This document shows, piece after piece, positions 18,636 through 64,000 of a DNA stretch of 64,000 nucleotides. The notes beneath the pieces were generated by a model. It was not told where the DNA came from. It worked only from the letters and a program-made list of their open reading frames with translations, and searched no databases. Positions within the stretch are counted from its first letter, which is position 1. The number at the start of each line of letters is the position of its first letter. The translations under genes and the position numbers were made by a program. Source of the DNA: an uncultured Elusimicrobia bacterium. GTDB lineage: Bacteria; Elusimicrobiota; Elusimicrobia; Elusimicrobiales; UBA9959. The stretch lies in assembly GCA_903873295.1 (NCBI GenBank), contig CAIQNV010000156.1, positions 19,671 to 83,670 of the forward strand, read 5' to 3'.

Positions 18636-19565
18636 TCAAACCCGGGGCTTGTAATAGGCGATGGTTTTTTTCAGGCCTTCTTCAAGGCCGATCCTGGGCT
18701 GCCATTTCAGGATCTTCTTGGCCTTGGTTATGTCGGGGCGGCGTACTTTGGGGTCGTCCTCGGGGAGGGGGCGGAAAACTATTTTGGACTTGCTTCCGGT
18801 CAGTCTTTTTACCGACTCGGCCAGTTCCAGAAGGGAGACTTCGTGCGGGTTGCCGATGTTGACGGGGCCGTTCTCTTTGCTTATCAGCAGGCGGTAGATG
18901 CCGTCTATCAGGTCCGAGACATAGCAGAGGCTGCGGGTCTGGGACCCGTCGCCGTAAACCGTTATCGGCTTGCCTTTCAGCGCCTGCGTCATGAAGTTTG
19001 GCACCGCGCGCCCGTCCTTCAGGCGCATATTCGGGCCGTAGGTGTTGAAGATGCGCAGCAGCCGCACCTGCATGCCGTGGTAGCGGTGGTAGGCCATGGT
19101 CAGGGCCTCGGCGTAGCGCTTGGCTTCGTCGTAAACGCCGCGCGGGCCGATAGGGTTGACGTTGCCCCAGTAGCCTTCGTGCTGGGGGTTTATCAGGGGG
19201 TCGCCGTAAACTTCGGAGGTGGAGGCTATCATGAAGATGGCCTTTTTTTCTTTGGCGAGCCCTAAAGCTTTATGTGTGCCCAGCGCGCCTACCTTCAGGG
19301 TGGGGATGGGGAACTTGAGATAGTCTATCGGGCTGGCGGGGCTGGCGAAGTGCAGCACCGCGTCCAGCTTGCCGGGGACGTGCAGGTAATTGGTTACGTC
19401 GTACTTGGTGAATTCGAACTTCTGGCTTTTGAACAGGTCCTGGATATTGTCTATGCTGCCGGTGATGAAGTTGTCTATACCTATTACGGAATGGCCCTTC
19501 CCCAGCAGGTAGCGCGAAAGATGGCTGCCCAGAAAGCCCGCCGCGCCGGTGACTAGTATTCTCAT
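18636..19565 (-). CDS. NAD-dependent epimerase/dehydratase, UDP-glucuronate decarboxylase (UDP-xylose synthase)-like
   Basis: [30 protein letters not shown]...[25 protein letters not shown]. Confidence 0.9.
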
Positions 19566-19596
19566 AATCAAATCTCCATTTTGCGAAACCTGCTCT

Positions 19597-19733
19597 CGCG
19601 GCGGCCAGGGGGGCCGGAACGCAAAATCGGCGTCGCGCACACCGTGCGCGCGCCTGCCGGTCTCGGGCTCGGCGCTTACGCAAGCCTCTCCCTCCGACGG
19701 GCTTTTGCTAACCCGGCCCCCCTGGCCGCCGCG
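19597..19733. repeat. Hairpin-rich element, family 2 copy a
   Basis: Perfect 21-bp IR CGCGGCGGCCAGGGGGGCCGG / CCGGCCCCCCTGGCCGCCGCG; internal CGCGCAC-acc-GTGCGCG hairpin and GCTTACGCAAGC loop motif. Confidence 0.8.
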
Positions 19734-19787: not shown

Positions 19788-21116
19788 TTACGGTCTTCCG
19801 ACGGATTTATACGTCCAGCCCAGCTCCCGCATTTTTGGGGGGTCGTAGAGGTTGCGGCCGTCCACTATTATCTGGTGTTTCACGATGGCCAGCAGCTTCT
19901 TCTGGTCGAGCTTCGCGAATTCTTTCCACTCGGTCACCAGGCAGACGCAGTCGGCGTCTTTGGCGCAGTCGTAGGCGTCCCTGGCGAAATAGATGCCCTT
20001 TATGGTCTTCTTCGCGTTCTCCTGCGAGACGGGGTCGTAGCCGCGCACTTTGGCGCCGCGCTTGAGCAGCTCCCGCACTATGTCTATGGACGGGGCGAAG
20101 CGCATGTCGTCGGTCTCCGGCTTGAAGGCCAGGCCCAGCAGCGCGATGGTCTTGCCTTCGAGGTTCCAGAGCTCCTCTTCAAGTTTCTTTATCAGCCACA
20201 TCTTCTGCCCCTCGTTGATATCCTTCACGGTCTTAAGCAGGGCGAAGTCGTAGCCGACCTGCGAGCTCAGCCAGTAGAAGGCCTCCAGGTCTTTGGGGAA
20301 ACAGAAGCCGCCGAAGCCGATGCCGGCCTTCAGGAAGGCGGGACCTATGCGCTTGTCGAGGCCCATGCCGCGGGCCACGTCTTCGACGTTGGCGCCGGTC
20401 TTCTCGCAGACGTTCGCCACCGCGTTGATGAAGGAGATCTTGGTGGACAGGAAGGAATTGGAGGCGTGCTTGATAAGCTCGGCGCTCTTCACGCTGGTGA
20501 TGACCAGGGGGCCCTTTATGGGCTTATAGACGCGGCGCATCAGCTCCTCGGCCTGCTTCGTGGAGACTCCCACGACTACGCGGTCGGGCTCCAGGAAGTC
20601 CCACACGGCGGTGCCTTCGCGCAGGAACTCCGGGTTGGAGGCCACGTCGAAAGGCAGGTGGTGCTTGTTGTGGCGCTTCACCGTCTTGTTTATCCAGTCG
20701 CAGGTGGCCACAGGCACGGTGGATTTTTCGACTATCACCGTATAGTCGGTCATGTTCTTCGCCACTTCTTCGGAAACTTTTTCTATGGCCGAAAGGTCGG
20801 CGGAGCCGTCCTCGCGGGGCGGGGTGCCCACGGCGATGAACACGGCCTCGGCGCGGTGGCCGCCGTGGTGCATGCCGTCCTTGATGGAATTGGCGAAGTG
20901 CAGGCGCCCGGCCTTCACGTTCTTTTTAACTACGCGCTCCAGGTCGTCCTCGTAGATGGGCATTACGCCCTTCTCGAGCATTTTTATCTTGGCGGGGTCG
21001 CTGTCCACGCAGACCACCCGGTGGCCGACCTCGGCCAGGCAGGCCCCGCTGACGAGGCCCACGTAGCCCGCGCCCACTATACAGATATTCACTTTGCCGT
21101 TCTTGGTCTTTTTCAT
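19788..21116 (-). CDS. UDP-glucose 6-dehydrogenase
   Basis: NICIVGAGYVGLVSGACLAEVGHRVVCVD; NPEFLREGTAVWDFLEPDRVVVG; GIGFGGFCFPKDLEAF. Confidence 0.93.
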   Translation of the reverse strand: MKKTKNGKVNICIVGAGYVGLVSGACLAEVGHRVVCVDSDPAKIKMLEKGVMPIYEDDLERVVKKNVKAGRLHFANSIKDGMHHGGHRAEAVFIAVGTPPREDGSADLSAIEKVSEEVAKNMTDYTVIVEKSTVPVATCDWINKTVKRHNKHHLPFDVASNPEFLREGTAVWDFLEPDRVVVGVSTKQAEELMRRVYKPIKGPLVITSVKSAELIKHASNSFLSTKISFINAVANVCEKTGANVEDVARGMGLDKRIGPAFLKAGIGFGGFCFPKDLEAFYWLSSQVGYDFALLKTVKDINEGQKMWLIKKLEEELWNLEGKTIALLGLAFKPETDDMRFAPSIDIVRELLKRGAKVRGYDPVSQENAKKTIKGIYFARDAYDCAKDADCVCLVTEWKEFAKLDQKKLLAIVKHQIIVDGRNLYDPPKMRELGWTYKSVGRP

Positions 21117-24822: not shown

Positions 24823-24890
24823 AATAAGAATTATACAGTAAGTCGCGCGGGGAAATCTATACTTAGTATCGAAGAGGAAAGCTGCGAGGG

Positions 24891-25020
24891 GGCCTGGCAA
24901 GGGTATGGGCCCGGCGGGCACCGGGTCGGCCACACCGTGGCCGCCCTCCTCACTCGGCCTTCGCGCTTACGCAAGCTCAGGCCTCCGTGAGGGCCCGCCG
25001 AACCCATACCCTTGCCACCC
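24891..25020. repeat. Hairpin-rich element, family 2 copy b
   Basis: Outer IR 24896-24918 / 24994-25016 (21/23); CGGCCAC-acc-GTGGCCG hairpin; GGCCT..GCTTACGCAAGC..AGGCC hairpin. Confidence 0.8.
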
Positions 25021-25057
25021 CTCCACAGGGAACTTAATTGACGAAACTTATTGTGGG

Positions 25058-25187
25058 GGGCTGGCCGGGGCGTTGCCCTGAGCACCCGTTGCGGAAAGGG
25101 GGCCCCGCCATAATTTCCCAAGGCGGGGGGAAACCGACGCAAGGGTTTCCTCTTCCCGGGTGAGCAGGGTAATGCCCCGGCCAGCCC
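25058..25187. repeat. Second, unrelated large imperfect hairpin element
   Basis: GGGCTGGCCGGGGCGTTGCCCTGAGCACCCG / CGGGTGAGCAGGGTAATGCCCCGGCCAGCCC with inner CCCCGCC..GGCGGGG and GGAAACC..GGGTTTCC. Confidence 0.7.
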
Positions 25188-63770: not shown

Positions 63771-64000
63771 CTGCGCTACCGGGTTTAGCATGGGTACGGG
63801 CCGGTCATGGGGTTGCCCATTCCGCCGCGCAGGAACCGTTGGCCGTCTGAAGAGCATAGCTTGATACGGCACGGGCATAGCCCAGCGCGGTTCCCCCCGA
63901 AGCGGGGCCAGCCACGCATAAACCGCATAGCGGTTTTGCGCGGTCCCGGCTCGGCGGTTTTGCTTACGCAGAAAACCGCCTCCGCCCTTGCGGCCCGGAC
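63771..64000. repeat. Dispersed hairpin element, copy 3 (mosaic of families 1 and 2, runs off window)
   Basis: CGGGTTTAGCATGGGTACGGGCCGGTCATGGGGTTGCCCATTCCGCCGCGCAGGAACCGTT then ~44-bp insertion, then GCGCGGTTCCCCCCGAAGCGGGGCC, then family-2 stem-loop GGCGGTTTT-GCTTACGCAG-AAAACCGCC. Confidence 0.75.

Follow-up and report, generated by a model that had tools for sequence, protein, structure and literature searches.

The window analyzed here, a 64,000-nt stretch of DNA from an uncultured Elusimicrobia bacterium (G000:C156:19671-83670; genome G000, 3.49 Mb in 157 contigs), contains two copies of a palindromic repeat, copy a (19597-19733) and copy b (24888-25022), which represent different subtypes of the same architecture (Table 1). 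Copy a lies between genes for a UDP-glucose/GDP-mannose dehydrogenase and an NAD-dependent epimerase that, as had been predicted, occupy the same strand; both genes are on the minus strand and the motif-bearing strand of the repeat is the plus strand. The epimerase ORF, which as listed overlaps copy a, probably starts near position 19565. Directly after copy b there is a third long imperfect palindrome (25058-25187; 31-nt arms, 87% complementary), and resembling sequences follow elements in other genomes too (e.g., L297).

Table 1. Positions of the two repeat copies, their parts, and the genes next to copy a
Feature	Position in window	Strand	Remarks
Copy a outer stem, left arm	19597..19617	+	21 nt, pairs perfectly with right arm
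Copy a internal-loop bases AAC	19618..19620	+	Invariant columns
Copy a inner stem GCAAAA	19621..19626	+	Partner TTTTGC, 19703-19708
Copy a hairpin H1	19629..19654	+	Loop ACC; stem CGCGCAC/GTGCGCG in copy a, covaries
Copy a hairpin H2	19656..19702	+	GCTTACGCAAGC tip; covarying lower stems
Copy a TTTTGC followed by unpaired TAAC	19703..19712	+	
Copy a outer stem, right arm	19713..19733	+	
Copy b	24888..25022	+	Inner stem type GGCGGGC/GCCCGCC
Copy b outer arms	24888-24919/24993-25024	+	32 nt, imperfect
NAD-dependent epimerase/dehydratase ORF, downstream gene	18636..19640	-	
UDP-glucose/GDP-mannose dehydrogenase, upstream gene	19788..21116	-	

As a single strand, the repeat (~135 nt) is predicted to fold into an outer stem of ~21 bp that closes a junction with two hairpins. 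Relative to dinucleotide shuffles, the folding of copy a has a z-score of -8.3 as DNA and -7.9 as RNA, and that of copy b a z-score of -8.4. The perfect 21-bp outer stem claimed for copy a was borne out (19597-19617 with 19713-19733), and the first hairpins reported for the two copies, CGCGCAC-ACC-GTGCGCG in copy a and CGGCCAC-ACC-GTGGCCG in the copy at 24.9 kb, are both present as stated. The second hairpin also exists, but not in the GGC-10nt-GCC form first proposed, as the best folds give GC(T)T-ACGC-A(A)GC with a 4-nt loop.

The sharing of GCTTACGCA among positions 19674, 24965, and 63962 is likewise correct (three occurrences in the window against 0.61 expected, a count reached by 1 of 100 shuffles). 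The three copies of the original prediction nonetheless become two, since a covariance model built from 92 copies (R1) matches the window just at copies a and b (E-values 8e-30 and 6e-28). The stretch at 63.9 kb is another repeat, in which GCTTACGCA lies within the hairpin loop of a ~128-nt module. This other family (GGTCATGGGGTTGCCC ... GGGCAACCCCATGCCC) occurs at 1783-1890 and 63780-64000 of the window; the module (GCCACGCATAAACCGC...GCCTCAC) is absent from the copy near 1.8 kb, present near 63.9 kb, and interrupts an element of the family described here in L076. The occurrence of the module in both repeat families suggests that it has undergone nested mobility.

The covariance-model search that had been proposed recovered further copies, for a total of 54 in G000, and others in its relatives. 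All 32 sampled genomes of the genus carry the repeat, with 9 to at least 55 copies per genome, 55 being the most that the scoring could count. Among 200 genomes spread over the phylum, copies are present solely in members of the same family, comprising seven of seven genomes of this genus and the genera g10, g12, and g13, with no repeat in genera g7, g8, g9, g11, and g14. A single copy (G045) is present in g6, a fourth sister genus, and no copy was found in g5. Further, when 85,462 species genomes were scanned with a sequence pattern, at least 109 stretches matched, and among the matches listed all taxon-named records are assigned to the Elusimicrobia, Elusimicrobiota, or Elusimicrobiales, the others being unnamed "bacterium" MAGs. 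The phage and plasmid collections searched gave no match. One viral-contig match (L187) is without the inner AAC/TAAC motifs and the paired outer stem, and looks like a chance match. The 9-mer GCTTACGCA itself occurs 83 times in G000, compared with 13 occurrences of a reversed control, with most matches within elements and many at contig ends. The repeat often falls at contig ends in the assemblies of this bacterial family, and elements less than 100 nt from contig ends are numerous in G000 (e.g., C119, C126, C148, C149, C152, and C153), and it is probable that the repeats break the assembly and that the copy counts are too low. Literature searches found no account of this repeat family, which is apparently undescribed so far.

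The pairing within the repeat was assessed in a gapless alignment of 50 copies (A2), chosen by the core motifs AACGCAAAA/ACC/GC..GCAAG/TTTTGCT and not by the outer stem or the lower pairs of H1 and H2, with 52 pairs in six helices fixed beforehand from anchors and single-copy folds. Across these pairs, 92.1% of cells pair, compared to 75.3% with shuffled partners and at most 48.4% when the partners are slid. Two-sided changes occur at 35 of the 52 pairs and in 417 cells against 133 expected from shuffles, a count inflated by kinship among the rows, and none of 500 shuffles reached any of five covariation measures. All 21 pairs of the outer stem and all four of helix 5 covary. The invariance of the core columns is partly by construction, including that of GCAAAA/TTTTGC, a motif by which the copies had been picked. 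Identical cores can carry different arms, as in seven copies of G014 whose 95-nt cores are 100% identical and in L035/L045 of G000 whose arms are unrelated, so the arm changes are not co-inherited with the cores. At positions 9-12 of the outer stem of type-a copies, 90% of bases pair within a copy compared to 48% across copies. The fold is also kept in copies from other genera, which were picked up by the model and not by motif; their H2 loop varies and their H1 loop is ACC or ACA. RNAalifold returned only 19 pairs on a mixed alignment (A1), a result of its arms being out of register. The conserved loops on covarying stems of the original prediction are thus real and, in the 50-copy alignment, far stronger than was visible from the window; the additional copies that might have broken the pairing while keeping the sequence did the opposite, keeping the pairing and changing the sequence.

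Several features besides the pairing itself recur among the copies. The relative orientation of the loops is the same in 95 cases and flipped in 0 for either hairpin, two standing mismatches in H1 are common to about half of the copies (26-27/50), and the outer stem retains an A.C/C.T motif in which GCCA faces CGTC. This mismatch motif and the inner ~8 bp of the arms are common to different copies. Small extra hairpins (e.g., GAGTTGTGTCGTTCGC..GCGAACTCCACC) are inserted within some copies (L230/L250, L221/L251, L236/L242, L105, and L144).

Selection at the RNA level would make G.U intermediates common and A.C mismatches rare. With the transcribed strands pooled, A2 minus its standing-mismatch columns has 15 G.T and 23 A.C in 2300 cells, and the outer stem of 60 type-a copies has 22 and 23, respectively; the pairing has no G.U preference. 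It should be noted that symmetric counts are also expected if RNA came from either strand. Should this be the case, the sum of G.T and A.C would exceed the other mismatches, but the observed sum is lower (38 vs 55). Additionally, 130 intergenic copies follow no orientation rule relative to their neighbors, with 79 in tandem gene pairs (32 vs 47), 33 between convergent genes, and 16 between divergent genes; these counts are approximate, as the genes were assigned by a longest-ORF heuristic. No Rfam family matched at the gathering score, and at relaxed thresholds the best matches, mir-629 and mir-1497, are far under the cut-off.

A structured RNA or cis-acting mRNA element, transcribed in a 3' UTR or intercistronic spacer and with stem changes selected in the RNA, might act as an RNase III processing site, an mRNA stabilizer, or a terminator. 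Such an element would agree with the compensatory stem changes, the very stable predicted RNA fold, and the position of copies near gene 3' ends (median distance ~30 nt, approximate as genes were assigned by a longest-ORF heuristic), with many copies within same-strand gene runs. The ~21-bp helices are also of a size suited to RNase III. Cleavage by RNase III is established for MITEs such as Correia (PMC10969869). Even so, an RNA element is improbable considering that G.U is nearly absent and no commoner than A.C, that copies occur in both orientations to genes, that cores are inverted at orthologous sites, and that no Rfam family corresponds. The repeat is best read as a palindromic DNA repeat rather than as the structured RNA first suggested; the hairpin-DNA recombination or binding site offered beside it fits better, although the RAYT/Y1 partner proposed for such a site is unsupported.

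It is common for a copy to be inherited at its existing site. Between the near relatives G061 and G062, 16-17 of the 19 loci in G061 have a matching element locus in G062, with 83-97% identity, mostly 90-97%. In these orthologs orientation is mostly kept, while the stems are altered in multi-base blocks that keep complementarity: GTGGGGCC/GGCCCCAC in one ortholog of L236/L242 corresponds to GTGGTACC/GGTACCAC in the other, GGCGAGGG is replaced by GGCAAGGG in L221/L251, and both H1 and H2 are rewritten in L218/L237. The outer arms are locus-specific and self-complementary, and they too change in multi-base complementary blocks. Conversely, the cores of different sites within a genome are homogenized, and in several cases (L218, L221, L227, L229, and one L220 copy) orthologous cores resemble each other less than within-genome paralogs do, which implies that cores are homogenized or replaced in place.

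The whole core can also be inverted between conserved arms, as observed at the orthologous site L150/L175, and core orientation differs as well in L098/L168 and in L110 versus L156/L143/L180. The site of copy a is filled in G003, G008, and G012, with the core of G012 opposite in orientation to those of G000, G003, and G008, and the element is absent in G004 and G014, where divergence of the spacers leaves no clean empty site. What a given spacer contains can vary across the genus, from an element with different arms or in inverted orientation to another hairpin repeat or none. An invertible site at which a site-specific recombinase flips the core between the arms would account for the differing orientations at orthologous sites, including that in G012, but is highly implausible: inverted arms suffice for inversion, arms that vary between copies provide no shared recombinase site, and the orthologs of G061 and G062 mostly keep their orientation.

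Replication template switching is known to homogenize the arms of inverted repeats and to invert spacers (PMC8604942), and compensatory changes of several bases at once in hairpins have likewise been traced to it (PMC8794818). Orthologs here differ by arm changes in complementary multi-base blocks and by inverted spacers, and template switching accounts for these inversions as well as for the arms and their symmetry. It leaves unexplained why the loops are constant and fixed in relative orientation, why mismatches persist, and how the repeat spreads; acting alone it should erase standing mismatches, yet those in H1 and in GCCA/CGTC persist. Since the loops never flip and the fold is recognizable in other genera, drift plus mutation bias alone is also insufficient. 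Loop constancy, fixed orientation, persistent mismatches, and spread instead point to something that reads the fold, as happens with REP or MITE sequences.

The best explanation, to which a probability of about 55% is assigned, is a non-autonomous, non-coding, REP/MITE-like palindromic DNA repeat with cores that are homogenized between copies and arms that template switching restores to perfect pairing. Template switching at the quasi-palindrome during replication would be the main keeper of arm complementarity and would also invert spacers, gene conversion or re-copying between repeats would keep the cores alike, and purifying selection or a recognizing protein may keep the loops constant in sequence and in orientation to each other. 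The repeat would reach new sites slowly, through machinery that reads hairpin DNA, and a secondary effect on host mRNA is possible.

No clean empty site was recovered; in a search of G061 against G062 at one locus each way, one ortholog is split by contig ends and the other is unrelated DNA, and as a result the case for insertion comes from presence and absence at diverged sites and from lineage-specific subtypes. Insertion may target pre-existing hairpins or copy the target flank in inverted form, such that every new copy has perfect arms of its own from the outset. Identical cores with unrelated perfect arms would follow directly, and the best single case is L080, where a full copy comes after an old left-half remnant, and the left arm of this copy matches the reverse complement of its right arm exactly, not that of the old left arm. 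However, template switching combined with core conversion yields the same picture, no clean empty site is at hand, and the inner ~8 bp and GCCA/CGTC motif common to the arms argue against arms made purely of target DNA, leaving such an origin decidedly unlikely. Equally doubtful is the associated proposal of spread by an undescribed transposition or replication chemistry, in which arms would be built from the target by an enzyme that recognizes the branched single-stranded DNA fold.

If the repeat were a classical REP or MITE, a dedicated Y1/RAYT transposase, or a DDE transposase that reads terminal repeats, would mobilize it in trans. Such an identity would be in keeping with extragenic, orientation-free repeats that occur in dozens of copies with lineage-specific subtypes. 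A long version of the element in G014 (L294, L298-L303, and L306) has, beyond its arms, a 5' block (CCGCGRGAWGCCCAGTCGGGG) and a 3' block (CTCCGGTTTAGTGAACG) common to the copies, which would also suit such a repeat, and Y1 transposase genes occur in 27 of the 32 genus genomes. But no Y1 gene was found in the other five, all of which are element-rich, Y1 genes are present in sister genera without elements, and none of 16 Y1 loci examined has an element; no dedicated transposase was found. Nor is a target-duplication signal evident, the best score being z = 3.1 among 144 tests, a weak dinucleotide signal obtained with an over-permissive stem-end finder (median arm 34). The outer arms vary between copies and do not form the constant terminal inverted repeats of a MITE, and in place of the unpaired GTAG/CGTC tag of a REP on a short palindrome, CGTC sits in the stem opposite GCCA. 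Movement by a dedicated transposase of either type is thus unlikely. In G062, two elements 1.3 kb apart (L238, 851-2019) surround two ORFs of 269 and 115 aa, neither of which has a Pfam match. As a candidate autonomous element, this arrangement has no clean boundary, and G061 has a single element there.

The template-switched DNA repeat favored here resembles several known systems in part. Integron attC sites are folded single-stranded DNA with conserved structure and variable stems. Unlike attC sites, the Elusimicrobiota repeat has its conserved parts in the center and its copies outside cassette arrays, and its AAC/TAAC loop appears to be at odds with the attC core consensus. REP/BIME sequences are likewise extragenic and palindromic, with tens of copies per genome and no orientation rule (PMC3733652), but have a simple 8-9 bp stem where this repeat has a ~135-nt branched fold with variable arms. 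Among them, the CGTC-REPs are palindromic repeats without a known dedicated transposase (PMC3733652), as is the case here, and the CGTC motif recurs in the right arm of the Elusimicrobiota repeat, though within a stem opposite GCCA and not as an unpaired tag; Elusimicrobia are not mentioned in that account. As with ERIC, Correia/NEMIS, and other intergenic MITEs (PMC10969869), the copies are dispersed, 100-150 nt long, and near genes, with a long stable hairpin. They differ from MITEs, however, in that constancy lies in the core and variation in the arms, opposite to the MITE arrangement, in having no constant terminal inverted repeats, and in that no target duplication was detected in a weak scan with a permissive stem-end finder. 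Template-switched quasi-palindromes (PMC8604942, PMC8794818) show the same homogenization of arms in complementary blocks and inversion of the spacer. Template switching is a mutational process to which any inverted repeat is open; in the present case its target would be an entire dispersed family whose loops are conserved.

The repeat is a marker of an entire bacterial family, reaching dozens of copies in a genome, and provides a large natural data set in which overwhelming Watson-Crick covariation occurs without the G.U signature of RNA and in which near relatives differ by block changes. It offers a test bed for weighing template switching against RNA selection as the source of the covariation used to call structured RNAs, and it cautions that such covariation alone is no proof of a functional RNA.
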